NCBI GenBank assembly: GCA_946480925.1
Contig: CAMLLU010000007.1
Span: 62,001 to 126,000, forward strand
DNA from: an uncultured Rivibacter sp.
GTDB taxonomy: Bacteria > Pseudomonadota > Gammaproteobacteria > Burkholderiales > Burkholderiaceae
Length of the DNA: 64,000 nucleotides
Reading direction: 5' to 3'
Part shown: piece by piece, positions 27,793 through 43,179 of the stretch
How the letters are laid out: each line of letters starts with the position of its first letter
Position numbering within the stretch: position 1 is the stretch's first letter
Notes under the pieces: model-generated
Databases searched by the model: none
What the model saw: only the letters and a program-made list of their open reading frames with translations
Told to the model about the DNA's origin: nothing
Program-made: the position numbers and the translations under genes

Positions 27793-27850
27793 GGGTTCGG
27801 CTGCCTCAGGGTAAGCGCTACCCCTTGGATGTGGGTTCCCATCGGAACGC

Positions 27851-27869
27851 TCCCCCTAGTTATGGGGGA
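27851..27869. promoter_or_regulatory. Inverted repeat upstream of PEP-CTERM gene
   Basis: TCCCCCTAGTTATGGGGGA is an inverted repeat with 6-base arms, 79 bases before the PEP-CTERM start codon. A TACCCCT heptamer lies just upstream at 27819-27825. It could be an operator; the binding protein is unknown. Confidence 0.4.
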
Positions 27870-27948
27870 AGAGGCTCTTACAAGCTGTCACGCCCGCTGG
27901 CACATTGGCCTGGGTGATTTTGCCCCGATGAGAGAGAAAGGAGGTGCT

Positions 27949-28461
27949 ATGAAACCAAGGAGCATGGTGGCCGCGCTGGCTCTTGCTGCCGCGGGACCCG
28001 CCATGGCAACGATCTGCTCGTACGACTCGACGCTTGAAACGTTGAGCTCGGTCGATACCGAGTTTGGCGCCGCGTGTCTCGGCTCAGGTTCGTTTACCCA
28101 CTACTACACCTTTTCGCTCGCCTCGCTGAGTGGCGTGAACGGCAGGGCGGACGAGTGGGACCTGCGATTCCTGGGCATCAGCACGGCGCTGTATTCGATC
28201 GGCCTGAGCGGAGGCAGCCTCGGCAGTGCGTGGCTGACCGATTCGTCGCCCCTGAACGGCTTTACCTTCGGCAACCTGGGTGCGGGCAGCTACAGCTTGC
28301 GCGTGACCGGGGCCGTGGATGGCTGGTCAGGCGGCTACGACGGCACGATCCGCGCGGTGTCCACCGTGGCGTCCGCGGTGCCGGAGCCCGAGACCTACGC
28401 GATGCTGGCCCTGGGCCTGGCAGGCGTGGGCTGGGTGACCCGTCGCCGCAAGTCGGTCTGA
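27949..28461 (+). CDS. PEP-CTERM sorting-domain protein
   Basis: A 170-residue exported protein. It has a signal peptide (MVAALALAAAGPAMA), a beta-rich body with two Cys (TICSYD and GAACLG, possibly a disulfide) and FTHYYTFSLAS, and a C-terminal PEP-CTERM tail: V-P-E-P-E, a hydrophobic helix and the basic end RRRK. Exosortases recognise this tail. A strong ribosome site AAAGGAGG precedes the ATG at 27949. The exosortase gene set epsD-xrtB-epsI starts 211 bases downstream on the same strand, so this is a likely local substrate. The body matches nothing I recognise. Confidence 0.9.
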   Translation: MKPRSMVAALALAAAGPAMATICSYDSTLETLSSVDTEFGAACLGSGSFTHYYTFSLASLSGVNGRADEWDLRFLGISTALYSIGLSGGSLGSAWLTDSSPLNGFTFGNLGAGSYSLRVTGAVDGWSGGYDGTIRAVSTVASAVPEPETYAMLALGLAGVGWVTRRRKSV

Positions 28462-29586: not shown

Positions 29587-30495
29587 ATGAGCGCTCTGCC
29601 CGGCCACACCCCCTCCGTCGTCGCCCCGGGCGTTCCGGGCAGCAGCCTGTCCGCATCGGCCGACCGGGTGGTGCTGGCTTTCCTGCTGGCAGGCATCGCG
29701 CTGCTGTACGGGCCCACGTATTGGGACTTTCTGCAGGGTGTGCACTCAGCCGACAGCCAGGGGCACGAGCCGCTGGTGGTGGGCGTATCGGCCTGGCTGG
29801 TGTGGCGCCAGCGCGAGGCGTTGGCGCGCCTGCCGGGCAGCGCAGCAGCACCGCGCACTGCCGCAGCCTTGCTGGTGATCGGGCTGCTCTTCTACGTGTT
29901 CGGCCGCACGCAGCACTTCCTGCGGCTGGAGCTGGCGTCGCAGGTGTTCGTCATGGGTGCCGTGCTGCTGGCGTTCAAGGGCTGGGCGGCCCTGCGCCTC
30001 ACGTGGTTCGCGTTCTTCTTCCTGATGTTCGCGGTGCCGCTGCCTTACACCGCGGTGGTGGCGCTGACGGCGCCGATGAAGGCGGCGGTGTCGGCCGTCG
30101 CCTCGACGTTGATGTTCTGGGCCGGCTATCCCGTGGGGCGGTCCGGCGTGGTCATCACCATCGGCCAGTACCAGCTGCTCGTGGCCGAAGCCTGCGCAGG
30201 GCTGCACACCATGTTCACGCTCGAGGCACTGGGCCTGCTCTACATGAAACTCATGGACTACCGTGCCTGGCAGCGCAGCGCGGCCCTCGCGTTACTCGTC
30301 GTGCCGGTTTCGTTCTGCGCCAACGTCGTGCGGGTCATCACGCTCACGCTCGTGACCTACTACTTCGGCGACGAAGTCGGGCAGGGTTTTGTGCACGGCT
30401 TCGCCGGCTTGCTGCTGTTTGCCGTCGCGCTGATGCTGATCTTCGGCGTCGACCGGCTGCTGGGCCTGGTGCTGCCGCGAAGGTGGCTCCAATGA
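29587..30495 (+). CDS. xrtB: Exosortase B
   Basis: A 302-residue multispanning membrane protease/transpeptidase. The three catalytic residues expected of exosortases are visible: Cys in VAEACAGLHT near residue 203, Arg in SFCANVVRVITLT near 248, and His in FVHGFAGLLLF near 269. The GPTYWDF and GHEPLVVGVSAWLVW segments are those of the XrtB subtype. Exosortases cleave PEP-CTERM tails at the cytoplasmic membrane, and two such proteins occur in this window (27949 and 42143). It overlaps epsI by four bases (ATGA), so the two are translationally coupled. Confidence 0.93.
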   Translation: MSALPGHTPSVVAPGVPGSSLSASADRVVLAFLLAGIALLYGPTYWDFLQGVHSADSQGHEPLVVGVSAWLVWRQREALARLPGSAAAPRTAAALLVIGLLFYVFGRTQHFLRLELASQVFVMGAVLLAFKGWAALRLTWFAFFFLMFAVPLPYTAVVALTAPMKAAVSAVASTLMFWAGYPVGRSGVVITIGQYQLLVAEACAGLHTMFTLEALGLLYMKLMDYRAWQRSAALALLVVPVSFCANVVRVITLTLVTYYFGDEVGQGFVHGFAGLLLFAVALMLIFGVDRLLGLVLPRRWLQ

Positions 30496-31169
30496 ACCCC
30501 GCACGCCGCAAGGCGCTGGTGATGGCTGGCGGCATGACCTGCGCTGCTGCGTTGGCACATGTGTTGAAGCCGCGCAGCGTGACCTCGGGCCTGCGCCTGG
30601 AACAGCTGTTCCCGGCCAGCATTGGTGGCTGGCAGATCGACAGGCGGTCCGACGTGTTCGTGCGCCCGTCGGGCGACCGAGGCCGTGTCTACGGTGTCTA
30701 CGACCAGGTGCTCGAGCGCGTCTATGTCCGGCCGGACGGCGCGCGCATCATGCTGTCGGTTGCCTACGGCAACGCACAGTCCACGGGCTTGCAGATGCAC
30801 CGGCCGGAAATCTGCTATGCCGGCGGCGGCTTTCAGGTCCGGGGCATGCACCAGGCCACATTGCAGTCAGCCGGCCGCTTCCTGCCCGTCACGCGTTTGC
30901 ATGCCGCCAAGCCGGGCCGCTCCGAGCCCATCACCTACTGGACGGTGCTGGGTGGCGAGGTCGTGAAGGACGCGTCCGGCTTCCGCTGGCGCCGGCTGTC
31001 GTCGAGCCTGCGCGGGCAATTGCTCGACGGCATGCTGGTGCGCATATCGAGCATCGATGCCGACCCTGCGAGGGCCTATGCGATGCACGAGCACTTCGCG
31101 CAGGCCCTGCTGGCGGCCATCGAGCCTGGCAGCCAGGTGCATGTGGCAGGCCCCTTGCCACCGGTCTGA
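30492..31169 (+). CDS. epsI: EpsI-family exosortase-associated protein
   Basis: A 225-residue protein of the EpsI family, which accompanies or is fused to exosortases. It has an N-terminal signal anchor (ALVMAGGMTCAAALAHVL after Arg-Arg-Lys) and the family core QLFPASIGGWQID, VYVRPDGARIMLSVAYG and QMHRPEICYAGGGFQV. Function is not established; a role in exosortase activity or exopolysaccharide export is inferred from co-occurrence. Its ATG at 30492 overlaps the xrtB stop. The gene after it (31263) belongs to a different module, so polysaccharide synthesis genes are not adjacent. Confidence 0.88.
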   Translation: MNPARRKALVMAGGMTCAAALAHVLKPRSVTSGLRLEQLFPASIGGWQIDRRSDVFVRPSGDRGRVYGVYDQVLERVYVRPDGARIMLSVAYGNAQSTGLQMHRPEICYAGGGFQVRGMHQATLQSAGRFLPVTRLHAAKPGRSEPITYWTVLGGEVVKDASGFRWRRLSSSLRGQLLDGMLVRISSIDADPARAYAMHEHFAQALLAAIEPGSQVHVAGPLPPV

Positions 31170-31262: not shown

Positions 31263-32318
31263 ATGGCCCTGATGGATTTCATCAAGAAGCAGTTCATCGA
31301 CATCCTCGAATGGGTCGAAGAAGGCGACGGCACGCTGGCCTGGCGCTTCCCCGTGGCCGACCGCGAAATCCAGTACGGCGGCTCGCTCACCGTGCGCGAG
31401 TCGCAGATGGCGGTGTTCGTCAACGAAGGCAAGGTGGCCGACGTCTTCGGCCCCGGCCGCTACACCCTCACCACGCAGACGCTGCCGGTGCTCACCTACC
31501 TGCAGAACTGGGACAAGCTCTTCAAGTCGCCGTTCAAGAGCGACGTGTACTTCTTCAGCACGCGCCAGCAGGTCGACCAGCGCTGGGGCACCACGCAGCC
31601 GGTCACCATCCGCGACAAGGACTTCGGTGCCGTGCGGCTGCGCGCCTTCGGCAACTACAGCTACCGCATCGCCGACCCCAAGCTCTTCCACACCGAGATT
31701 TCCGGCACGCGCGACCGCTACATCGTGGCCGACCTCGACGGCCAGTTGCGCGCGCTGATGCTGCAACACATCTCCGACGCGGTGGCTTCCAGCGGCATTC
31801 CGTTCCTCGACCTCGCGGCCAACCAGGTGGAGTTCGCCGAGCAGCTGAAGAACGTCACCGCACCGGCCTTCGAGAAGCTGGGCCTGAAGCTCGAGGGCGT
31901 GACGGTGCAGAACGTCTCGCTGCCCGAAGAGCTGCAGAAGATCCTCGACCAGAAGATCGGCATGGGCATGGTCGGCGGCGACATGGGCAAGTTCATGCAG
32001 TACCAGACGGCGCAGGCCATCCCGAAGTTCGCCGAAGGTGCGGCAGCGGGCGGTGGCGGCAGCGGCATCGCCGGCGACGCGATGGGCCTGGGCGCCGGCG
32101 TGGCGCTCGGCCAGGTGCTGGCGCAGAACCTCGCGCAGGGCCTGCAAGGCGGCAACGCCGTGCCGCCGGCGCAAGCCGTTCCTGCGGCGCCCGCCGGCGT
32201 GAAGCCCGAAGACGTGATGGCCACGCTCGAAAAGCTGGGCGACCTGAAGGCCAAGGGCATCCTCACGCAGGAAGAGTTCGACGCGAAGAAGGCCGAGCTG
32301 CTGAAGAAGCTGGTTTGA
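31263..32318 (+). CDS. SPFH-domain protein with SHOCT tail (YdjI-like)
   Basis: A 351-residue protein of the virion-core/YdjI branch of SPFH proteins. It begins with the conserved FIKKQFIDILEW, then IQYGGSLTVRESQMAVFVNEG and VFGPGRYTLTTQTLPVL, ends its SPFH part near residue 215, has a Gly-rich linker, and finishes with a SHOCT-type short helix pair (LEKLGDLKAKGILTQEEF then KKAELLKKL). In Bacillus, YdjI helps place the PspA protein YdjF at stressed membranes. No pspA is seen here. A strong AAAGGAG site precedes the ATG. It is the first gene of the 31-40 kb block and is followed by the DUF4178 gene after 113 bases. Confidence 0.9.
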   Translation: MALMDFIKKQFIDILEWVEEGDGTLAWRFPVADREIQYGGSLTVRESQMAVFVNEGKVADVFGPGRYTLTTQTLPVLTYLQNWDKLFKSPFKSDVYFFSTRQQVDQRWGTTQPVTIRDKDFGAVRLRAFGNYSYRIADPKLFHTEISGTRDRYIVADLDGQLRALMLQHISDAVASSGIPFLDLAANQVEFAEQLKNVTAPAFEKLGLKLEGVTVQNVSLPEELQKILDQKIGMGMVGGDMGKFMQYQTAQAIPKFAEGAAAGGGGSGIAGDAMGLGAGVALGQVLAQNLAQGLQGGNAVPPAQAVPAAPAGVKPEDVMATLEKLGDLKAKGILTQEEFDAKKAELLKKLV

Positions 32319-32431
32319 GCGGTACAGCCGCCATGGGCCTGCTGCGAACGAACGAGCGGGCCCGCACACAACACGAAGCGAACGCTGGGGGAGCAACACG
32401 ATGCAAGGCAGCCGCTGCTGCAGCCTGACGC

Positions 32432-34024
32432 ATGGCGACTGACGCGCCGGTGCCCGGCCAGCGCGCCTACCGCGCCGCCTGCCCGAACTGCGGTGCTCCG
32501 GTCGAGTTCCGCTCGGCCGCCTCGCCCATGGCGGTGTGCAGCTTCTGCCGCAGCACGCTGCTGCGCGACGGCGAGGCGCTCAAGCGCATCGGCACCAGCG
32601 CCGAGCTGTTCGACGACCACAGCCCGCTGCAGCTGGGCGTGGGCGGCAAGTACCAGGGCGCCGCGTTCACGCTGGTGGGCCGGCTGCAGATGCGCTATGC
32701 CGGCGGCACGTGGAACGAATGGCATGCCGTCTTCGACAGCGGCAAGAGCGGCTGGCTGAGCGAAGACAACGGGCAATACGTCTTCAGCTTCGAAGCGCCC
32801 GCGCCGGGCCTGCTGCCGGCGGCCGAAACGCTGCGCCCCGGCACGCAGCAGATGGTCGGCAACCAGGGCTGGTCCGTCGCCTCGGTGAGCGCCGTGAAGG
32901 TGGGCGCTGCTGAAGGCGAGCTGCCCTTCGTACCGGAGCTGGTGCGCGGCTACGTGGTGGCCGACCTGCGCAACACGCAAGGCGAAGTCGCCACCATCGA
33001 CTACAGCGACACGCCGCCGCGCTGGTACGTGGGCCGCGGCCTGCGACTCGAAGAGCTGGCCGCCAGCGGGCTCAAGGCCGAATCGGCACGCGAACTCAAG
33101 GGCCGCAGCCTCGAATGCCCGAACTGCGGCGCCTCGCTCGAAGTGAAGCTCGGCACCACGCAGTCCATCACCTGCAGCCAGTGCCACGCGGTGATCGACG
33201 TGTCGCAGGGCGTGGGGGCCGAGCTTTCGCACTACACGCAGCGCAACAGCGGCGAAAGCGGGCTCGAACCGCAAATCCCCCTGGGCGCCACCGGCATGCT
33301 GACGCTGGGCGGATCGAAGGCGGTGCCCTGGCAGGTGGTGGGTTATGTGGAGCGCTGCGAGATCCCCGAGGACCCGGACGACGAGCAGGCGTTCTGGCGC
33401 GAGTACCTGCTATACCACCGCACCGAAGGCTTCGCCTTCCTGGTGGACACCGAAGAGGGCTGGAGCTGGACGCGGCCCATCACCGGCGTGCCCAAGGTGC
33501 TGGGTGCCGACCGCGTGGTGCTCGAGGGCGAGACCTATCGCAAGAAGTACAGCTACAACGCCAAGATCACCTGGGTGCTGGGCGAGTTCTACTGGCACCT
33601 CGAGCGTGAGCAGCACACCTTCAACACCGACTACGAAGGCACAGGCGGCGGGCCCCAGAAGCAGCTCAACCGCGAACAGGCGGGCGACGAAGTCACCTGG
33701 TCGGCCGGCGCGGTGATCGCGGCCGACACGGTGTTCAAGGCCTTTCGCCTGGCGCCCGAAACGGCAGGTGCACTGCAGCGCGATGCGGCGCCGGTATCGG
33801 CCAACAAGTCGAGCGCGCTGGCCTACATCTTCCTGGGCATGCTGATCCTGCTGGTGCTGGTGGCCGCGGCGCGCTGCGGCAGCGACGATTGCGACGACGT
33901 GCGCCGCAACTTCGGCGAATACAGCAACGAGTACCAGCAGTGCAAGCGCTCGGGCGGCGGCGGTGGCAGCGGGCGCGGCGGCTCGTGGGGCGGCTTCAGC
34001 AGCGGAGGCGGCGGCCACAAGTAG
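32432..34024 (+). CDS. DUF4178 protein with two zinc ribbons and a C-terminal membrane helix
   Basis: A 530-residue protein. Zinc ribbon 1 (CPNCG near residue 17 with CSFC near 36) precedes a first DUF4178-like beta domain (YQGAAFTLVGRLQMRYAGGTW). Zinc ribbon 2 (CPNCG near 229 with CSQC near 247) precedes a second one (AVPWQVVGYVERCEI). Near residue 465 is a membrane helix (YIFLGMLILLVLVAA), and the tail is Gly/Ser-rich. The duplicated ribbon-plus-domain layout suggests internal duplication. Function is unknown; DUF4178 genes recur beside DUF350, SPFH and spermidine-synthase genes in bacteria, as here. Confidence 0.88.
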   Translation: MATDAPVPGQRAYRAACPNCGAPVEFRSAASPMAVCSFCRSTLLRDGEALKRIGTSAELFDDHSPLQLGVGGKYQGAAFTLVGRLQMRYAGGTWNEWHAVFDSGKSGWLSEDNGQYVFSFEAPAPGLLPAAETLRPGTQQMVGNQGWSVASVSAVKVGAAEGELPFVPELVRGYVVADLRNTQGEVATIDYSDTPPRWYVGRGLRLEELAASGLKAESARELKGRSLECPNCGASLEVKLGTTQSITCSQCHAVIDVSQGVGAELSHYTQRNSGESGLEPQIPLGATGMLTLGGSKAVPWQVVGYVERCEIPEDPDDEQAFWREYLLYHRTEGFAFLVDTEEGWSWTRPITGVPKVLGADRVVLEGETYRKKYSYNAKITWVLGEFYWHLEREQHTFNTDYEGTGGGPQKQLNREQAGDEVTWSAGAVIAADTVFKAFRLAPETAGALQRDAAPVSANKSSALAYIFLGMLILLVLVAAARCGSDDCDDVRRNFGEYSNEYQQCKRSGGGGGSGRGGSWGGFSSGGGGHK

Positions 34025-34074
34025 TGGCCCGCACCAGGTTCACCATTCACACATACGGCAACGAAAGGCACACC

Positions 34075-34299
34075 ATGATGGGACTCGAATGGCTCAGGCC
34101 CGCAGCGTTTTTCGGCTCGCTGATCTACGCGCTGATCGGCGTGGTCATCTTCTGGGTGAGCTTCATCATCATCGACAAGCTCACGCCCTACGACCTGTGG
34201 GCCGAGATCTGCGAGAAGAAGAACCTCGCGCTGGCCATCGTGGTGGCGGCCATGTGCCTGGGCATCTCGGTCATCGTGGCGGCCGCCATCCACGGGTAG
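34075..34299 (+). CDS. DUF350 small membrane protein
   Basis: A 74-residue protein with two membrane helices (FGSLIYALIGVVIFWVSFII and LALAIVVAAMCLGISVIVAA) joined by the polar loop DKLTPYDLWAEICEKKN. DUF350 (YjfL) proteins usually have about two or four such helices; this is the short form. The start could be ATG 34075 or 34078. It lies 50 bases after the DUF4178 gene. YjfL in E. coli belongs to an operon with a PspA relative and a glutathionylspermidine-synthase homologue, again a link to polyamines and membrane stress; its role is unknown. Confidence 0.85.
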   Translation: MMGLEWLRPAAFFGSLIYALIGVVIFWVSFIIIDKLTPYDLWAEICEKKNLALAIVVAAMCLGISVIVAAAIHG

Positions 34300-34306
34300 C
34301 GGTATT

Positions 34307-34738
34307 TCAGCTTTCGGCCCAGGGATCGTAGGTTCCGACGTTCCAGACATGACCCTCGAGATCGCGGCAAGTGAAGCCGCGTTCGCCGTAGTCTTCGTCC
34401 TGGATCTCGCGCAGGATCGCACCGCCGGCCTCCTTCACGCGGGCATACACGGCGTCGGCATCGGGCACCACCAGGTAGGGCGACTGCGTCTCGCGCCCGC
34501 CCACCTCGCCGGGCTGGGCGGTGAGCCGGCCGAATTCGGTGTCGTGGCTGGCTGAGCCCAGCATCACCATGCCGCGCCCGCCCAGGCTGAGCTGCGCATG
34601 CGCGACGGTGTTGCCCTCGCCCGGCACGACGAGGTGCCTGTCGAAGCCGAACACACGGCACAACCATTCGATGGCCGCCGGGGCGTCGCGGTAGCGCAGG
34701 CAGGGGATGACGGCATATTGGCCCGAGCTTGCATTCAT
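34307..34738 (-). CDS. VOC-superfamily (glyoxalase-like) protein
   Basis: A 143-residue single-unit VOC protein with the two paired beta-alpha-beta modules: AVIPCLRYRDAPAAIEWLCR and YLVVPDADAVYARVKEAGG, ending FTCRDLEGHVWNVGTYDPW. It resembles the YRDAPAAIEWL group annotated as glyoxalase or PhnB-like proteins; its substrate is unknown. The ATG at 34738 has a strong AGGAGG site seven to twelve bases upstream on the minus strand. It is the only minus-strand gene inside the 31-40 kb plus-strand block, so it probably is an insertion into that block or an unrelated passenger. Confidence 0.85.
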   Translation of the reverse strand: MNASSGQYAVIPCLRYRDAPAAIEWLCRVFGFDRHLVVPGEGNTVAHAQLSLGGRGMVMLGSASHDTEFGRLTAQPGEVGGRETQSPYLVVPDADAVYARVKEAGGAILREIQDEDYGERGFTCRDLEGHVWNVGTYDPWAES

Positions 34739-34816
34739 GTCGTTCCTCCTGGGCAGGGTGTTTGCAAGAATCCCGCAGGACTGCCGCCGATGTTGGCAGC
34801 TTTCGTTCCCCACGCA

Positions 34817-35165
34817 ATGACAGAACCCACCGCCGCCGAGGTTGCTGCCGCTCGAAGCATCGAGCCAGCCTCGCCGTGCCTGCAGTGCGGGGCGTGCTGC
34901 AGTGCGTTCCGCGTGTCCTTCTACTGGGCGGAAGCGGCCGAGCTGCCGCAGCGGTACGTCGAGCAGGTGAACCCCTGGTATGCCTGCATGGTCGGCACCA
35001 ACAACGCAGCGCCGCGGTGCGCGGCGCTCGAAGGCGAGATCGGCGGTGCCGTGGGCTTGCCGCGTCTACGAGTCGCGGCCGCCGGCCTGCCGTGAGGTGC
35101 AGCCTGGTGACGAGCGGTGCAACAAGGCGAGGGCGCGGCATGGGCTTGCGCCGTTGAATCCATGA
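34817..35165 (+). pseudogene. YkgJ-family cysteine-cluster protein, frameshifted
   Basis: The first frame, from the ATG at 34817, encodes EPASPCLQCGACCSAFRVSF and continues to GEIGGAVG near 35060, then loses similarity and stops at 35095. The next frame takes up the expected ending, CRVYESRPPACREV and ERCNKARARHGL, and stops at 35165. Joining the two gives a complete zinc/iron-chelating (YkgJ, CxxCxxCC) protein of about 115 residues, so one extra base near 35053-35062 breaks it. The second-frame stop overlaps the ATG of the next gene (ATGA), as expected for an originally intact, coupled gene. It could be a real mutation or a sequencing error. Confidence 0.8.
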
Positions 35166-36754
35166 CTCAAGAAGTGACCCGCCCGGACCATGCAATCGCC
35201 GCCAGTGCCCGGGCCGTGCGCCCCGCCGAAGTCGCACTGCTGGCCTCCGTCTTCGTGGTCGCTGCCTGCGGCCTCGTCTACGAGCTCGCGGCCGGGGCGC
35301 TGGCGAGCTACCTGCTCGGCGACTCGGTGCTGCAGTTCTCCACCATCATCGGCAGCTACCTCTTCGCGATGGGCGTGGGCTCGTGGCTCTCGCGCTTTCT
35401 CGAGCGCCAGCTCATCGCCCATTTCCTGCGCATCGAGCTGTTCGTCGGGCTGGTGGGCGGGTTGATGCCGGCGGCGCTGTTCGTGGCGCACAGCTATCTG
35501 CCGGTCACCGCGGGCGTGTCGTTCCGCGTGCTGCTGTATTCGATGGTGCTGCTGGTGGGCACGCTGGTGGGGCTGGAGATCCCGCTGGTCATGCGCATCC
35601 TCAAGCACCACTTCCGCGAGCGCTATGCGCTCAAGGAGCTGGTGTCGCAGGTGCTCACCTTCGACTACCTCGGTGCGCTCGCCGTGTCGGTGGCCTTTCC
35701 GCTGCTGCTGGTGCCGCAGCTGGGGCTGGTGCGCACGGGGCTCTTCTTCGGGCTGCTCAACGTTGCCGTGGCGGTGTGGGCGCTGTGGCTCTTTCGCGCG
35801 GAGCTGCGGCAGTTCGGCGCGCACGCCGCGGCCTGCGTGGCGGCGGTGCTGGCGTTGCTCATCGCATTCGCTGGCGCCGACAAGCTCACCACCTGGGCCG
35901 ACGACCGGTTTTACGGCGACGCCATCGTCTTCAACGAAACCACGCCCTACCAGCGCCTCGTCGTCACCTCCAACGCCGCGGGCGTGAGGCTCTTTCTCAA
36001 CGGCAACCTGCAGTTCAACTCGAAAGACGAATACCGCTACCACGAGGCGCTGGTGCACCCGGCCATGGCCGCGCACGGCGCACCGAAGCGCGTGCTGGTG
36101 CTCGGCGGCGGTGACGGCATGGCCGTGCGCGAAGTGCTGCGCTACGCGAGCGTCGAGCAGGTCACGCTGGTAGAGCTCGACCCCGCGATGACGCGGTTGT
36201 TCTCGACCCAGCCGTTGCTGGCACGGCTCAACGGCGGCGCGCTGCAATCGCCCAAGCTGCGCATCGTCAATCAAGACGCCTACACCTGGCTCGACACCCA
36301 CCCCGACGAGATGTTCGACGTGATCGTGGTGGACTTTCCCGATCCCACCAACTTCTCCATCGGCAAGCTCTACACCACGTCGTTCTACGCGCTGCTCGAC
36401 CGGCACCTCGCCGCCAGCGGCTATGCGGTGGTGCAGACCACCTCGCCGCTCATCGCGCGCAAGAGCTACTGGACGGTGGTGGCCACGCTCGAAGCGGTGG
36501 GCCTTTCCACGCGGCCTTACCACGCGCACGTGCCGAGCTTCGGTGAATGGGGCTTCGTGCTGGCATCGCGGCGGCCGTGGGCACAGCCGCGCGCCCTGCC
36601 CGAAGGCTTGCGCTTTCTCAGCCTCGAAGGCCTGCCGGGCTTGTTCGCCTTTCCGCCCGACATGGCCCGAGTGAGCGCCGAGCCCAACCGCCTGAGCCAC
36701 CAGAACCTCGTGCACACCTTCGAAGAGGAGTGGGGCCGAGTCCACCAACCCTGA
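35162..36754 (+). CDS. Membrane-integral polyamine aminopropyltransferase (SpeE-like)
   Basis: A 530-residue fusion. The N-terminal half (about residues 20-240) has seven or so membrane helices, beginning VALLASVFVVAACGLVYELAA with the repeated small-residue segment LFAMGVGSWLS. The C-terminal half is a spermidine-synthase fold: QFNSKDEYRYHEALVHPAM, the SAM-binding VLVLGGGDGMAVREVL, acidic VTLVELDPAMT, and the VVDFPDPTNFSIGKLYT active-site region. Soluble SpeE transfers aminopropyl from decarboxylated SAM to putrescine; no speD or speA/C is nearby. The ATG at 35162 overlaps the broken YkgJ frame. The substrate may be a polyamine or something else. Confidence 0.88.
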   Translation: MTQEVTRPDHAIAASARAVRPAEVALLASVFVVAACGLVYELAAGALASYLLGDSVLQFSTIIGSYLFAMGVGSWLSRFLERQLIAHFLRIELFVGLVGGLMPAALFVAHSYLPVTAGVSFRVLLYSMVLLVGTLVGLEIPLVMRILKHHFRERYALKELVSQVLTFDYLGALAVSVAFPLLLVPQLGLVRTGLFFGLLNVAVAVWALWLFRAELRQFGAHAAACVAAVLALLIAFAGADKLTTWADDRFYGDAIVFNETTPYQRLVVTSNAAGVRLFLNGNLQFNSKDEYRYHEALVHPAMAAHGAPKRVLVLGGGDGMAVREVLRYASVEQVTLVELDPAMTRLFSTQPLLARLNGGALQSPKLRIVNQDAYTWLDTHPDEMFDVIVVDFPDPTNFSIGKLYTTSFYALLDRHLAASGYAVVQTTSPLIARKSYWTVVATLEAVGLSTRPYHAHVPSFGEWGFVLASRRPWAQPRALPEGLRFLSLEGLPGLFAFPPDMARVSAEPNRLSHQNLVHTFEEEWGRVHQP

Positions 36755-38391
36755 TGGGCGCGATGCCGCTGAAGCGCCGCACCCTGCTTGCGTGGTCAGC
36801 CGCGGGTGCCGCAGGCCTTGCCGGCTGCCGTGCAGACCGACCGCCGCTGCAGGGCGGTTGGGTGGGGGCTTCACACGAGCGTGGGCACGCATGGCGTGAC
36901 GGCCGATTGCAGCGCGGCGATGCCGGCCATGCCAGGCGTGTTGATGTCGCCATCGTCGGCGCGGGCGTTGCGGGCCTGTCGGTGGCTCGAGCGTTGCGCC
37001 GCGCGGGCGTCGAAGACCTGCGCCTCTTCGAACTCGAAGACCAGGCCGGCGGCAACAGCCGCGGCCACCAGATGGGCGGCATGCGTTGCCCTTTGGGCGC
37101 TCACTACCTGCCTACGCCCGGACCGCATGCACGGGCGGTGAGCGAATGGCTGCACGAGATCGGCATCGCGCGCCACGAGCTGGGCCGCACCGTGTATGAC
37201 GAACGCCACCTGTGCCATGCCCCGCAGGAGCGGCTGTTCATCGGAGGCCCCACGCACGGGCAGTGGCAGGAAGGCCTGCTGCCGGTGCAAGGCGCATCGG
37301 CCGACACGCTCGCGCAGTACCGCCGCTTCGCGCGCGTGGTGCGCGAGCTGCAGGCCAGCCACCCTTTCCGTTTGCCCACGGCGCAGGCGCCATGGACGCC
37401 CGGTCTGGCCGCGCTCGACGCACAGCCTTTCGACCAATGGCTGCAGGCGCAAGGTTTCAGCGACACCTGGCTGCGCGGCTACCTCGACTATTGCTGCCGC
37501 GACGACTACGGCGCCGGCCTCGAGCAGGTCTCGGCCTGGGCCGGCCTGCACTACTTCGCGAGCCGCCACGGCTTCCACGCGCCGGGTGATGAAGAAGTGC
37601 CCGAGGCCGAGCGCGACGCGGTGCTCACCTGGCCCGAGGGCAATGCATGGCTCGCTGAACGCCTCGCCGCTGGCCTGGGCGAACGCCTGCAGACTGGCGC
37701 GGTGCTCACGCGCGTGTCGCCTGGCCGCGAGGCGGTGACGCTGGAGTCGTGGAACGCCGCGCAGCAGCGGCCCGAGCGCTGGCTCGCAAAACACGTCGTG
37801 ATGTGCGTGCCGTTGTTCATCGCCGCACGGCTCGTCGATGCGCCGCCTTCCGCGCTGCGCGATGCTGCCGCGGCCATGCGCTACGCGCCGTGGCTGGTGA
37901 GCAACCTCCAGCTGAGCGCACCGCTGCTCGACCGCATTGGCGTACCACCCGCGTGGGACAACGTGGTCCACGGCGGCAAGACGCTCGGCTATGTAGATGC
38001 GCAGCACCAAAGCCTGCGGCCGGTGCGCGGCGCCACCGTGCTCACGCACTACTGGGCGCTCGGCGGCCGTTCGCTGGAAGAGCTCAAGGCGCAGCGGCAA
38101 CGCCTGCTCGCCGAGCCATGGCAGAACTGTGCGCAGGCGGTCATCGACGAACTGGTGCCGGTGCACCCAGACCTGCCCGGGAAGCTGCAGCGCATCGACC
38201 TTATGCGCTATGGCCACGCGATGAGCGTCCCCACGCCCGGCCTGCGCAGCAGTGCGGCGCTCGCGGCGCTGGCGCAGCCACAAGGTCGGCTGCACTTCGC
38301 GCATGCCGACCTGTCGGGCTATTCGGTGTTCGAGGAGGCGTTCACGTGGGGCGTGGTGGTCGGAGCGAGGGTGGCGCGTTCTTCGACATAG
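36754..38391 (+). CDS. Tat-exported lipoprotein, FAD-dependent amine-oxidase-like oxidoreductase
   Basis: A 545-residue flavoprotein. Its N terminus is a twin-arginine signal (LKRRTLLAWSAAGAAG) that ends in the lipobox LAGC (Cys 25), so it is probably folded with FAD in the cytoplasm and then lipid-anchored in the periplasm. The FAD fold starts VDVAIVGAGVAGLSVARAL near residue 64 and has LFELEDQAGGNS. The C-terminal FAD contact is in LHFAHADLSGYSVFEEAFTWG. It overlaps the SpeE-like gene by one base (TGATG), implying co-translation; relatives are usually paired with such aminopropyltransferases. An amine or polyamine adduct is a plausible substrate, not proven. Confidence 0.85.
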   Translation: MGAMPLKRRTLLAWSAAGAAGLAGCRADRPPLQGGWVGASHERGHAWRDGRLQRGDAGHARRVDVAIVGAGVAGLSVARALRRAGVEDLRLFELEDQAGGNSRGHQMGGMRCPLGAHYLPTPGPHARAVSEWLHEIGIARHELGRTVYDERHLCHAPQERLFIGGPTHGQWQEGLLPVQGASADTLAQYRRFARVVRELQASHPFRLPTAQAPWTPGLAALDAQPFDQWLQAQGFSDTWLRGYLDYCCRDDYGAGLEQVSAWAGLHYFASRHGFHAPGDEEVPEAERDAVLTWPEGNAWLAERLAAGLGERLQTGAVLTRVSPGREAVTLESWNAAQQRPERWLAKHVVMCVPLFIAARLVDAPPSALRDAAAAMRYAPWLVSNLQLSAPLLDRIGVPPAWDNVVHGGKTLGYVDAQHQSLRPVRGATVLTHYWALGGRSLEELKAQRQRLLAEPWQNCAQAVIDELVPVHPDLPGKLQRIDLMRYGHAMSVPTPGLRSSAALAALAQPQGRLHFAHADLSGYSVFEEAFTWGVVVGARVARSST

Positions 38392-38417
38392 GCAATGGCG
38401 GAGCGGAGGGAGTTTTC

Positions 38418-40274
38418 ATGCACGAACCGGTGGTGAGCGCGGCTGTGGAGGCACAGGTGCCGCAGAGAGCCAGCAGCGCGGCAGAGCGCTGGCAACTCGC
38501 GGCCTGGGCGGTGGGAGGGTCCTGTGTGTATCAGTTCTTTCTGCTCGCACCTTGGGCGTTCAGCCTCGGCATGGGTGCGCTGGTGTTCAACCGTGTCGAA
38601 GTCTGGTGGCTTGCAGGTGCGGCAATGCTGTTCCTGGCTTGGCTGCATCAACCGAGCACACGCCTGAAAGGGCGCGAGCTGCGAAGCGATGAAGTGCCGC
38701 AGCTGTTTCAAACGATCGACGAGTTGCGGCAGGCGCTGCGCACCCCGCGCATCGACACCGTGCTGTTGACGGACGACTTCAATGCCAGTGCTGCCGAACT
38801 GGGGCGAGGCTTCAGCCTGCGGCCAACGAGGCGCGTGTTGCTGCTGGGGCAGCCATTGCTGTCATTGCTGGATGAGCAAGCTCTGCGCGCCGTGCTGGCT
38901 CACGAGTTGGCGCACTTTTCGCATCGGCATGGCAGGCTGGGGCATTGGGTCTATCGCACGCGCCTTGCATGGTTGCACCTGACCGACTCGAACGAGGACG
39001 ATTCGTTGTTCGACCGTGCTGCAACCGGCTTCGCTCGCCGCTTTGCTCCGTGGTTCTCACAGCGCAGCTTTGCGTATTCACGCGCTTGTGAATTCGAGGC
39101 CGACCGTGCAGCTGCGGATGTGATCGGTCGTGTCGACTACGCCAGGGCTCTGCAGCGTGCAACGCTGGCAATCGCCGTCGCTCCAGCTCGCACGCAGATC
39201 GGTTTGCTGGAGATGCAGGCGGAACATGCCGAGCCGCCGCAGGACTTGACCGCGTGGCGCCAGCACTGGTATCGAACACTGCCACCTTCACCGCGCGAGC
39301 GCGAGCAACTGTGGGCTGAGCCGCCGAAAGCTGACGATACCCACCCAACGCTGCGTGAGCGTTGCCATGCGCTCGGCGTGACGCTTGATGCCAAGGCGGA
39401 TGAAGCGTCAATGTCGATCACGGGCAATACCTTTTGTGCCGGCGAAGCGCTGCTGGGTCCGTCGTGGCACACGCTGGTCGGCGAGGCCGACTCGGCCTGC
39501 AGGCAGCAACTGGGTCAGTCTTGGGGCACGTGGCACGCGGTACAGGCTGTCCTGCGATCCAGACTGGCTTTTCCCGACGCTGCCAAGATGTCGCACGCCG
39601 AGCTGCTGCGTTTCGAAGCTGTGATGCAGCCATCTGGAACGAAAGCGGAAATCGCTTGGCCTGTCGCAGACGATGCTTCCACTGAAGCGAACTACCTCGT
39701 CGGGTGTTCGCTGCTGCGGCAAGGCAGCCGGCAGGGCGTCGACCTGCTGAGGCAGTGCATCAACGCTGATGCCAGCTGGGCCGCTGCTGCCCGTGCCGCC
39801 TTGCATGAGTTGGGAGAACGTCAGCTGGCAGACGACGAGCAACTGCAGAACCTTGCGTTGCTCGACCAAGCCCGCGAACGGCGCAGTCAGGTAGCGCAAG
39901 CGGCACGTGAACGCCTGCTCGACGGCCGCTTCGGGACGCCGATAGGCGCATCAACCGGGGTTGCCGTTGAAGCTCTGGCAGCGGCCCTGCGGGCTTGCCC
40001 ACCTCTCGACGCAGCGTGGTGTTTTGCCGAGGAAGTCGCGCTCGATGAGCGCAGGCGCTACCCGGTGTGCGTGTTGTTGTTGCGGGTCGATCCGCGAGCG
40101 GCCGAAACGGCTGGTACCGATGAAGACCGTATCGCCGAACTGGGTGGCGAACTGCTCTCTGCACTGTGGCCTGCGAACGTCGTGCGCATGGTGCACACGG
40201 TGTTCACGACGGAAGCCATGCCTGCCTCATTCGAAGCTGCCTTGGCTGCGGCAGCCAAGGCGCGCTTGCGTTGA
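38418..40274 (+). CDS. M48-family membrane metalloprotease
   Basis: A 618-residue protein. Two hydrophobic segments (SCVYQFFLLAPWAFSLGMGALVF and VWWLAGAAMLFLAWL, about residues 38-78) precede the peptidase domain with the zinc-binding AVLAHELAHFSHRHG (HExxH) near residue 160 and the third-ligand helix ACEFEADRAAADVIG near 220. The C-terminal 300 residues form an uncharacterised helical region. M48 proteases (HtpX, BepA, Oma1 type) handle misfolded membrane proteins. Codon use is visibly less G/C-biased than its neighbours (TTG, CGA and GCA runs), hinting at separate origin. It follows the oxidoreductase by 26 bases. The ATG at 38418 has a GGAGGG site upstream. Confidence 0.85.
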   Translation: MHEPVVSAAVEAQVPQRASSAAERWQLAAWAVGGSCVYQFFLLAPWAFSLGMGALVFNRVEVWWLAGAAMLFLAWLHQPSTRLKGRELRSDEVPQLFQTIDELRQALRTPRIDTVLLTDDFNASAAELGRGFSLRPTRRVLLLGQPLLSLLDEQALRAVLAHELAHFSHRHGRLGHWVYRTRLAWLHLTDSNEDDSLFDRAATGFARRFAPWFSQRSFAYSRACEFEADRAAADVIGRVDYARALQRATLAIAVAPARTQIGLLEMQAEHAEPPQDLTAWRQHWYRTLPPSPREREQLWAEPPKADDTHPTLRERCHALGVTLDAKADEASMSITGNTFCAGEALLGPSWHTLVGEADSACRQQLGQSWGTWHAVQAVLRSRLAFPDAAKMSHAELLRFEAVMQPSGTKAEIAWPVADDASTEANYLVGCSLLRQGSRQGVDLLRQCINADASWAAAARAALHELGERQLADDEQLQNLALLDQARERRSQVAQAARERLLDGRFGTPIGASTGVAVEALAAALRACPPLDAAWCFAEEVALDERRRYPVCVLLLRVDPRAAETAGTDEDRIAELGGELLSALWPANVVRMVHTVFTTEAMPASFEAALAAAAKARLR

Positions 40275-42142: not shown

Positions 42143-42730
42143 CTATTCCATTGGGCGGCGGCGCCGGGCCAGCCAGCCGACGATGCCCAGGCCGGCGGCC
42201 AGCAGCGCGTACGTCTGCGGCTCGGGTATCGGCGTGATGAGCGCCGCGTGGGACAGCTCTTGCGTCATGCCATTGCCGTTCACCGACACGCCGAGCATCG
42301 AATAGTCGATGCTCGTGATGCCGGCGGCACCCCCGTTGAACAGGTACATGCTGAACGAGTTGGCCCCCATCAACGAGATCGCAAAGAAGCCGGTGACCGG
42401 GTTGTCGAAGGTCAGCGTGCCGGACGTTCCGTTGGAGCTGGCCGTGAACGGACCGCTGCCGGCGTCGTCGCTCTTGCCGACGAGCACCCATGGCACGTTG
42501 CCGACGAACGCACTGAAGTCCATTTGCGCCTGCATCAGGAAGTCATCGTGCTGCTGCACGTCGTTGCCCGCCCAGGCACCCGAGCAGGCGAGTGCATCCG
42601 GCTCGAAGCCCGAAACCATGACCCCGCCGTTGTTGCAACTGAGACCCGTGGCGGTGAGAGCCGCCTGGGCCGGCAAGGCCAGTGCAGTTACCGACACTGT
42701 CGACAAGAGAGAGCGTGTTAGCCAATGCAT
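42143..42730 (-). CDS. PEP-CTERM sorting-domain protein
   Basis: A 195-residue exported protein. Signal peptide is SLLSTVSVTALALPAQA; the body has ATGLSCNNGG and DALACSGAWAG Cys pairs and a beta-rich stretch GTLTFDNPVTGFFAISLMG. The C terminus is a PEP-CTERM tail: I-P-E-P-Q, a hydrophobic helix and RRRR. It is a second likely exosortase substrate, 11.6 kb from xrtB. The ATG at 42730 has a GGAGGT ribosome site. Promoter region carries an inverted repeat at 42811-42829 (AGGGTG / CACCCT). Confidence 0.88.
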   Translation of the reverse strand: MHWLTRSLLSTVSVTALALPAQAALTATGLSCNNGGVMVSGFEPDALACSGAWAGNDVQQHDDFLMQAQMDFSAFVGNVPWVLVGKSDDAGSGPFTASSNGTSGTLTFDNPVTGFFAISLMGANSFSMYLFNGGAAGITSIDYSMLGVSVNGNGMTQELSHAALITPIPEPQTYALLAAGLGIVGWLARRRRPME

Positions 42731-43179
42731 GGCAACCTCCAAGGTTGTGGAGCCGATGTTGAGTGCCGTCGCGCTTGAGCTACCGAGACAATAGGCGCTG
42801 CCTCTGCAGAAGGGTGTTTCCTGCACCCTCTCGTCTCAGTCTTCACCTTTCGATACTGCTGCAAGCGAAGGTTGGGGTTTGAGGCTGGTGTCCCTCGTAT
42901 GCGCAGATGCGTGGCGGATCGTTGCTTGGCTCGCTCATCGCGAGCGATGCACCTGACTGCGCTGGCTAGCCGCTGCGCGACACCGCCTCGGAACCGGGCG
43001 GGAAGAAGCCAGCAGCTACAGTTGCCCACAGTCAGGATCACGCAAGGCCATCCCGGCCCCGATCAAGTTCAGTCGGCAGGTGGGTCAAATCAAGGTCGGA
43101 ACGGAAGGCTGCTTGTTCGCCACGAAGCGTGAAGGCTAGTACCGTTTCGGGGTTGATCGCGGAAGTCCACAAAGCCTCC
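42731..43179. other. Gene-free stretch, lower GC
   Basis: This 449-base gap holds the promoter side of the PEP-CTERM gene, including the inverted repeat AGGGTG / CACCCT at 42811-42829. The part from about 43030 to 43180 is noticeably lower in G+C than its surroundings and contains short frames without recognisable similarity, so it may be a degraded gene or a small insertion remnant. I see no RNA gene in it. Confidence 0.5.

Follow-up and report, generated by a model that had tools for sequence, protein, structure and literature searches.

The locus analyzed here lies at positions 31263-40274 of a 64-kb window (the whole stretch of DNA under analysis, 64,000 nucleotides of contig CAMLLU010000007.1 from an uncultured Rivibacter sp.) and contains five plus-strand genes that recur together in related genomes. 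The first encodes an SPFH/Band-7 protein with a C-terminal SHOCT domain (31263..32318; PF13421, 258 bits; PF09851, 37.8 bits). It is followed by the gene for a double DUF4178 protein (32432..34024), in which PF13785 is matched in two stretches and which bears CxxC pairs resembling a zinc ribbon as well as a C-terminal hydrophobic segment (residues 462-480), and by that for a short DUF350 protein of 74 amino acids with two hydrophobic segments (34075..34299; PF03994, 55.1 bits). The remaining two genes encode a SpeE aminopropyltransferase fused to an N-terminal membrane domain (35162..36754; NF002956, NF037959 and PF01564) and, overlapping it by one base, a flavoenzyme resembling amine oxidases and the spermidine dehydrogenase SpdH (36754..38391; PF01593), which carries a lipoprotein signal of the twin-arginine translocation (Tat) type, with twin Arg and the lipobox LAGC.

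Related loci were collected by scanning genome contigs with the window SpeE as query; 506 were confirmed, and the best 80, which judged by title belong to Burkholderiales genera or proteobacterial bins, were compared. Matches to the SPFH protein were identified in 70 of these loci, to DUF4178 in 74, to DUF350 in 75 and to the flavoenzyme in 77, and the full set of SPFH, DUF4178, short DUF350, membrane SpeE and flavoenzyme is present in 69/80. Among the 11 incomplete loci, six are cut by the end of the contig at the missing gene (L017, L030, L031, L036, L069, L075), two comprise only 3.2 and 5.3 kb of DNA upstream of SpeE (L026 and L042, respectively) and three lack genes within the available DNA (L013, L022, L049). 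When distances are measured up to where the tblastn match begins, DUF350 lies at most 300 bp from SpeE in 54/80 loci, and SpeE at most 300 bp from the flavoenzyme in 65/80. Three further genes of the window locus, encoding a VOC-family protein, a YkgJ-like remnant and an M48 peptidase, do not follow this pattern: neither VOC nor YkgJ has a match in any of the 80 loci, and M48 is matched in one, at 28% identity. L001, from Methylibium rhizosphaerae, is the closest relative, with a SpeE of 91% identity; it has no VOC, YkgJ or M48 match, and its DUF350 and SpeE genes are separated by 64 bp, the gap in the window being 862 bp. The recurrence of the core in 69/80 loci exceeds chance, and VOC, YkgJ and M48 do not recur in this way; the conserved unit thus comprises five genes, and the window carries the other three as local additions. 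Several-kb insertions also separate core genes in Acidovorax-like genomes (L032, L048, L056, L059, L076 and similar loci); they include an open reading frame (ORF) of 1267 amino acids that, in 11 loci, separates SpeE from the flavoenzyme.

The original prediction had proposed that SPFH, DUF4178, DUF350, membrane SpeE and the exported flavoenzyme are functionally linked, and had named conserved co-occurrence beforehand as a check. In a sample of 150 Burkholderiales genomes (flavoenzyme threshold E ≤ 1e-20), the flavoenzyme, full-length membrane SpeE and DUF4178 were each found in 24 genomes, and these are the same 24, which supports the link. The coincidence of two such gene sets would have a probability of ~3e-28 if genomes were independent, which they are not, relatedness being uncorrected. 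The flavoenzyme gene is a direct neighbor of SpeE, no more than 150 bp away, in 21 of the 24 genomes; both genes are still kept in the remaining three, where the flavoenzyme lies 18 kb away (one genome) or on another contig (two). A second sample, taken from across the phylum and comprising 299 genomes (thresholds of E ≤ 1e-40 for membrane SpeE and E ≤ 1e-10 for the flavoenzyme), yielded a nested distribution, with membrane SpeE in 31 genomes, DUF4178 in 20, all within the 31, and the flavoenzyme in 10, all within the 20 with DUF4178; since the flavoenzyme searches scored at most nine candidates per genome in the first sample and at most four in the second, these flavoenzyme counts may include misses. 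In the sampled Burkholderiales, membrane-fused SpeE strictly accompanies one predicted heme-b flavoenzyme and DUF4178.

The module is also encoded on plasmids. The window flavoenzyme matches seven records of a plasmid collection, and all five records examined encode SPFH, DUF4178, SpeE, the flavoenzyme and the S-adenosylmethionine (AdoMet) decarboxylase SpeD, with DUF350 detected in 4/5. The examined records include one Gemmatimonadota plasmid (Gemmatirosa) and one 3.2-Mb Burkholderia replicon, and two of three Novosphingobium plasmids are typed as conjugative. The annotated order on plasmid p1 of Novosphingobium sp. ES2-1 is SPFH, DUF4178, DUF4178, a small ORF, DUF350, polyamine aminopropyltransferase, FAD-dependent (flavin adenine dinucleotide) oxidoreductase and speD. 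The plasmid-borne modules of Novosphingobium and Gemmatirosa that include speD correspond to L230, L232, L233 and L234.

The lack of speD noted in the original prediction is true of the window and is a local feature only. No speD was found in the 64 kb, the best stretches (E 0.16, and E 0.011 inside the flavoprotein gene) being taken as chance, and the gene is presumably located elsewhere in the source genome. SpeD was found in 52 of the 150 Burkholderiales genomes, comprising all 24 module-bearing genomes, 27 others with a SpeE match and one with a weak SpeD match only, and a second SpeE match (E ≤ 1e-15) is present in three of the 24 module-bearing genomes and in none of the other 21. Exactly one SpeD is likewise encoded in 30/30 other host genomes, reached through the named loci, with a single PF01564 match above 100 bits in 28 of them; in the two exceptions, Comamonas granuli and Paenacidovorax caeni, speD is flanked by a second SpeE. 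Decarboxylated AdoMet is proposed as the donor mainly because module-bearing genomes have SpeD, mostly without a second SpeE, and in most of them membrane SpeE is the only evident user of the SpeD product, which narrows the question of function to a small, testable set. The notion that the SpeE proteins of the relatives lack a donor was rejected on the same 24/24 and 30/30 counts. In the genomes of L060 and L076 (G023 and G029), the only speD adjoins a second, stronger PF01564 gene and membrane SpeE lies elsewhere, possibly through replacement of the module's own speD.

The position of speD varies among relatives. In 36/80 loci the fetched DNA includes it downstream, in opposite orientation, and in the 13 loci of a divergent type (L167-L179), where DUF4178 and SPFH are oriented opposite to SpeE, it occupies the DUF4178/SPFH strand in 10. 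In L181 the flavoenzyme gene and speD share four bases within one gene run, and all six components including speD are contiguous in L181, the Novosphingobium plasmids and Gemmatirosa.

SpeE scores 684.3 bits (cut-off 472) against NF002956, an equivalog model named polyamine aminopropyltransferase, and 50.1 bits (cut-off 40) against NF037959 (MFS_SpdSyn). Its hydrophobic segments lie within residues 24-236 and PF01564 (Spermine_synth) is matched at 291-469; the catalytic domain aligns with solved aminopropyltransferases, and the SpeE motifs are conserved across 81 sequences. Within the membrane domain G137, E139, P141, R145, D168, G171 and N200 are invariant in 46/46 sequences, taken both from loci that contain PspA and from loci that lack it, and E41 is found in 43/46. 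The retention of charged residues in or beside the hydrophobic segments would fit the handling of a cationic molecule. A targeted literature search for fused spermidine synthases returned no paper. Work attributed to Li and colleagues, and said to have appeared in Biochem J in 2019, reportedly describes MFS-SpdSyn fusions occurring with AdoMet decarboxylase and DUF350; these would share the fusion enzyme, SpeD and DUF350 with the module while lacking its partner set of flavoenzyme, SPFH and DUF4178.

For the flavoenzyme, the predicted model and its fold matches indicate an amine-oxidase/spermidine-dehydrogenase type of fold, which is common to putrescine oxidase and SpdH. The model shares this fold, including the N-terminal segment, with SpdH of Pseudomonas aeruginosa (7d9f-7d9j), from which the flavoenzyme differs in its Tat-lipoprotein signal and in sequence, identity being ~15%. 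Conservation was assessed in an alignment of 88 relatives, two sequences under 450 residues having been left out. H45 and H488 are present in 88/88 sequences, and the twin Arg and the lipobox Cys in 84/88 each; these aligned counts were used in place of pattern searches for Tat signal plus lipobox, which retrieved 53/74 with a first pattern and 69/74 with a wider one. Enzymes of the MAO/PAO family possess a conserved flavin-proximal lysine. No such lysine was apparent in the flavoenzyme, where no alignment column held at least 30% Lys in 50 relatives, or at least 50% in the 88. The heme ligands of SpdH are given as His54 and His562 in the part of PMC12564564 drawn on here, which also covers the chemistry of SpdH, and H45 and H488 fall at the matching positions, although this mapping is weak, the N-terminal score not exceeding that of shuffled sequences and the C-terminal correspondence being obtained at two of the three gap costs. 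We propose, from these alignments, that H45 and H488 could act as heme-b ligands of the flavoenzyme.

The SPFH, DUF350 and DUF4178 families had been introduced as neighbors of PspA-type envelope-stress genes. This association is valid for the wider SpeE family, whereas in the window module SPFH occurs instead of PspA. As the original prediction stated, the window lacks pspA: neither pspA nor CesT has a tblastn match there at E ≤ 0.1, and no match to two PspA queries and one CesT query was obtained at 1e-5 in the 80 loci. In a comparison of 40 loci drawn from the 150- and 299-genome samples, 19 have SPFH and 12 have PspA; none has both, and nine, some of them short contigs, have neither. This distribution suggests that SPFH may stand in for PspA in such systems. 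The flavoenzyme is clustered in 16 of the 40 loci and in none of those encoding PspA, in an analysis of clustering that missed at least one known copy (L171). The PspA loci contain PspA, CesT/Tir or DUF2170, DUF350, DUF4178, a lipoprotein and membrane SpeE, with speD in 8/12, and DUF350 differs in size among the versions, with 74 amino acids in the window, ~130 in the divergent type and ~284 alongside PspA.

These 12 loci match the second major group of Ravi et al. (2024, mSystems, PMC11237479), which the part of that paper drawn on here describes as PspA-CesT/Tir operons with a seven-transmembrane (7TM)-fused SpeE, YjfL/DUF350, DUF4178 and a lipoprotein. The window module has in common with that group, as so described, membrane-fused SpeE, DUF350, DUF4178 and an envelope lipoprotein, and differs in that SPFH/SHOCT replaces PspA and CesT, the lipoprotein is the flavoenzyme and DUF350 spans 74 rather than ~284 amino acids. 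The same source places, inside an ATP-grasp operon group, a variant with Band-7/SHOCT, AdoMet decarboxylase and polyamine oxidase (PMC11237479). This variant resembles the module in that Band-7/SHOCT replaces the PspA dyad and in its AdoMet decarboxylase and polyamine-oxidase-like enzyme, but its group is built on an ATP-grasp ligase, and the part of the paper drawn on here mentions no 7TM-SpeE with that group. No ATP-grasp protein was seen among the window proteins scanned.

The five genes form a conserved bacterial unit that probably adds an aminopropyl group to some molecule at the inner membrane and oxidizes amines on its outer side. Our preferred interpretation, to which we assign a probability of about 0.5, is that they belong to a six-component module for membrane aminopropyl transfer and amine oxidation, five of whose genes lie in the window. 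Starting from directly observed gene content, gene boundaries, co-occurrence, fold and residue conservation, we infer donor use, the acceptor, the heme, the site of each step and the scaffold role as follows. SpeD would make decarboxylated AdoMet, from which membrane-fused SpeE, working on the cytoplasmic side of the inner membrane, would pass the aminopropyl group to an amine acceptor. This acceptor is probably more than free putrescine and might be a lipid, a peptide or an amine associated with the membrane. The SpdH-like flavoenzyme, exported by Tat and anchored by a lipid, would then act in the periplasm, oxidizing and possibly cleaving the aminopropylated product or a related polyamine product, with electrons passing from FAD to a surface heme b. 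The SPFH/SHOCT, DUF4178 and DUF350 proteins may keep the enzymes at the membrane or regulate them there, in the position occupied by PspA and CesT in other versions. This route from SpeD through membrane SpeE and an aminopropylated product to periplasmic oxidation is proposed as the simplest scheme that gives the conserved enzymes a role. Aminopropylation followed by oxidation had been suggested originally, and that idea is supported in part, the pairing of the two enzymes being sharpened by the predicted resemblance to SpdH. Li and colleagues are said to have already proposed a non-putrescine acceptor, i.e. that the fusions act on something besides putrescine, so that the aminopropylation half of the scheme would already be in print; the present analysis adds a strict set of partners, corrected gene boundaries, the prediction of an SpdH-like enzyme and the mutual exclusion of SPFH and PspA.

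The conservation of the SpeE motifs, an NCBIfam equivalog score for polyamine aminopropyltransferase far above cut-off, a predicted flavoenzyme fold like that of putrescine oxidase and SpdH, and the presence of SpeD in every module-bearing genome checked (24/24 and 30/30) would also be in keeping with ordinary polyamine homeostasis. The fused SpeE would then be a spermidine synthase, perhaps also an exporter, the lipoprotein a periplasmic polyamine-degrading dehydrogenase and the other proteins tethers. We regard this alternative as serious though rather unlikely, given that it leaves the strict tie to DUF4178 and SPFH unexplained and that, in the work of Li and colleagues, the fusions reportedly fail to replace SpeE in E. 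coli and come from hosts without spermidine.

More doubtful still is an elaboration in which a portable module, found also on plasmids, would run a two-sided aminopropyl cycle: acting from the cytoplasm, membrane SpeE would decorate a lipid or a peptide of the envelope, with E139 and D168 holding or passing the cationic product, and a lipid-anchored heme-b flavocytochrome of the SpdH kind would remove or oxidize the group in the periplasm. If true, the surface charge of the inner membrane would be coupled to the respiratory chain. The window without speD could also be read to mean that AdoMet itself is the donor for the fused SpeE, which would then transfer a 3-amino-3-carboxypropyl group, making SpeD irrelevant; this appears very improbable in view of SpeD in all 24 and all 30 module-bearing genomes, mostly without another SpeE, and of speD inside the cluster in L181, the Novosphingobium plasmids and Gemmatirosa.

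A stress operon of seven genes in which YkgJ and M48 take an active part, M48 in quality control, is hardly credible, since the shared strand and the short distances on one side (a four-base YkgJ/SpeE overlap and 26 bp between the flavoprotein gene and M48) are set against 0/80 loci for VOC and YkgJ, one for M48, a broken YkgJ frame and an intervening minus-strand gene, and the seven-gene unit as a whole was rejected. The genes originally listed as seven in tight order on the plus strand are real, and their 1-4 base overlaps (YkgJ remnant/SpeE and SpeE/flavoprotein gene) are borne out; the order itself is split by the 862-bp gap, the broken YkgJ frame and the VOC/glyoxalase-family gene, a minus-strand gene absent from the original list that separates DUF350 from the YkgJ remnant (34307..34738; PF00903, 47.7 bits for the longer ORF). 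The YkgJ-like remnant (34817..35165, plus strand) occupies two frames and is either a real pseudogene or the product of a sequence error; its N-terminal piece has a weak CxxCxxCC match (PF03692, E 0.01, 16.9 bits against a cut-off of 23), and the second piece has no family match in domain scans. The M48 peptidase gene (38418..40274, plus strand; PF01435, 58 bits) is a local neighbor outside the conserved module. Directly upstream of the block lie an exosortase gene (29587-30495; PF09721, 217 bits) and, after it, a DUF3485/EpsI-like gene (30492-31169; PF11984), and ORFs at 27829-28461 (plus strand) and 42143-42826 (minus strand) end, as read from their translations only, in a PEP-CTERM-like tail of Pro-Glu-Pro, a hydrophobic stretch and an Arg run.

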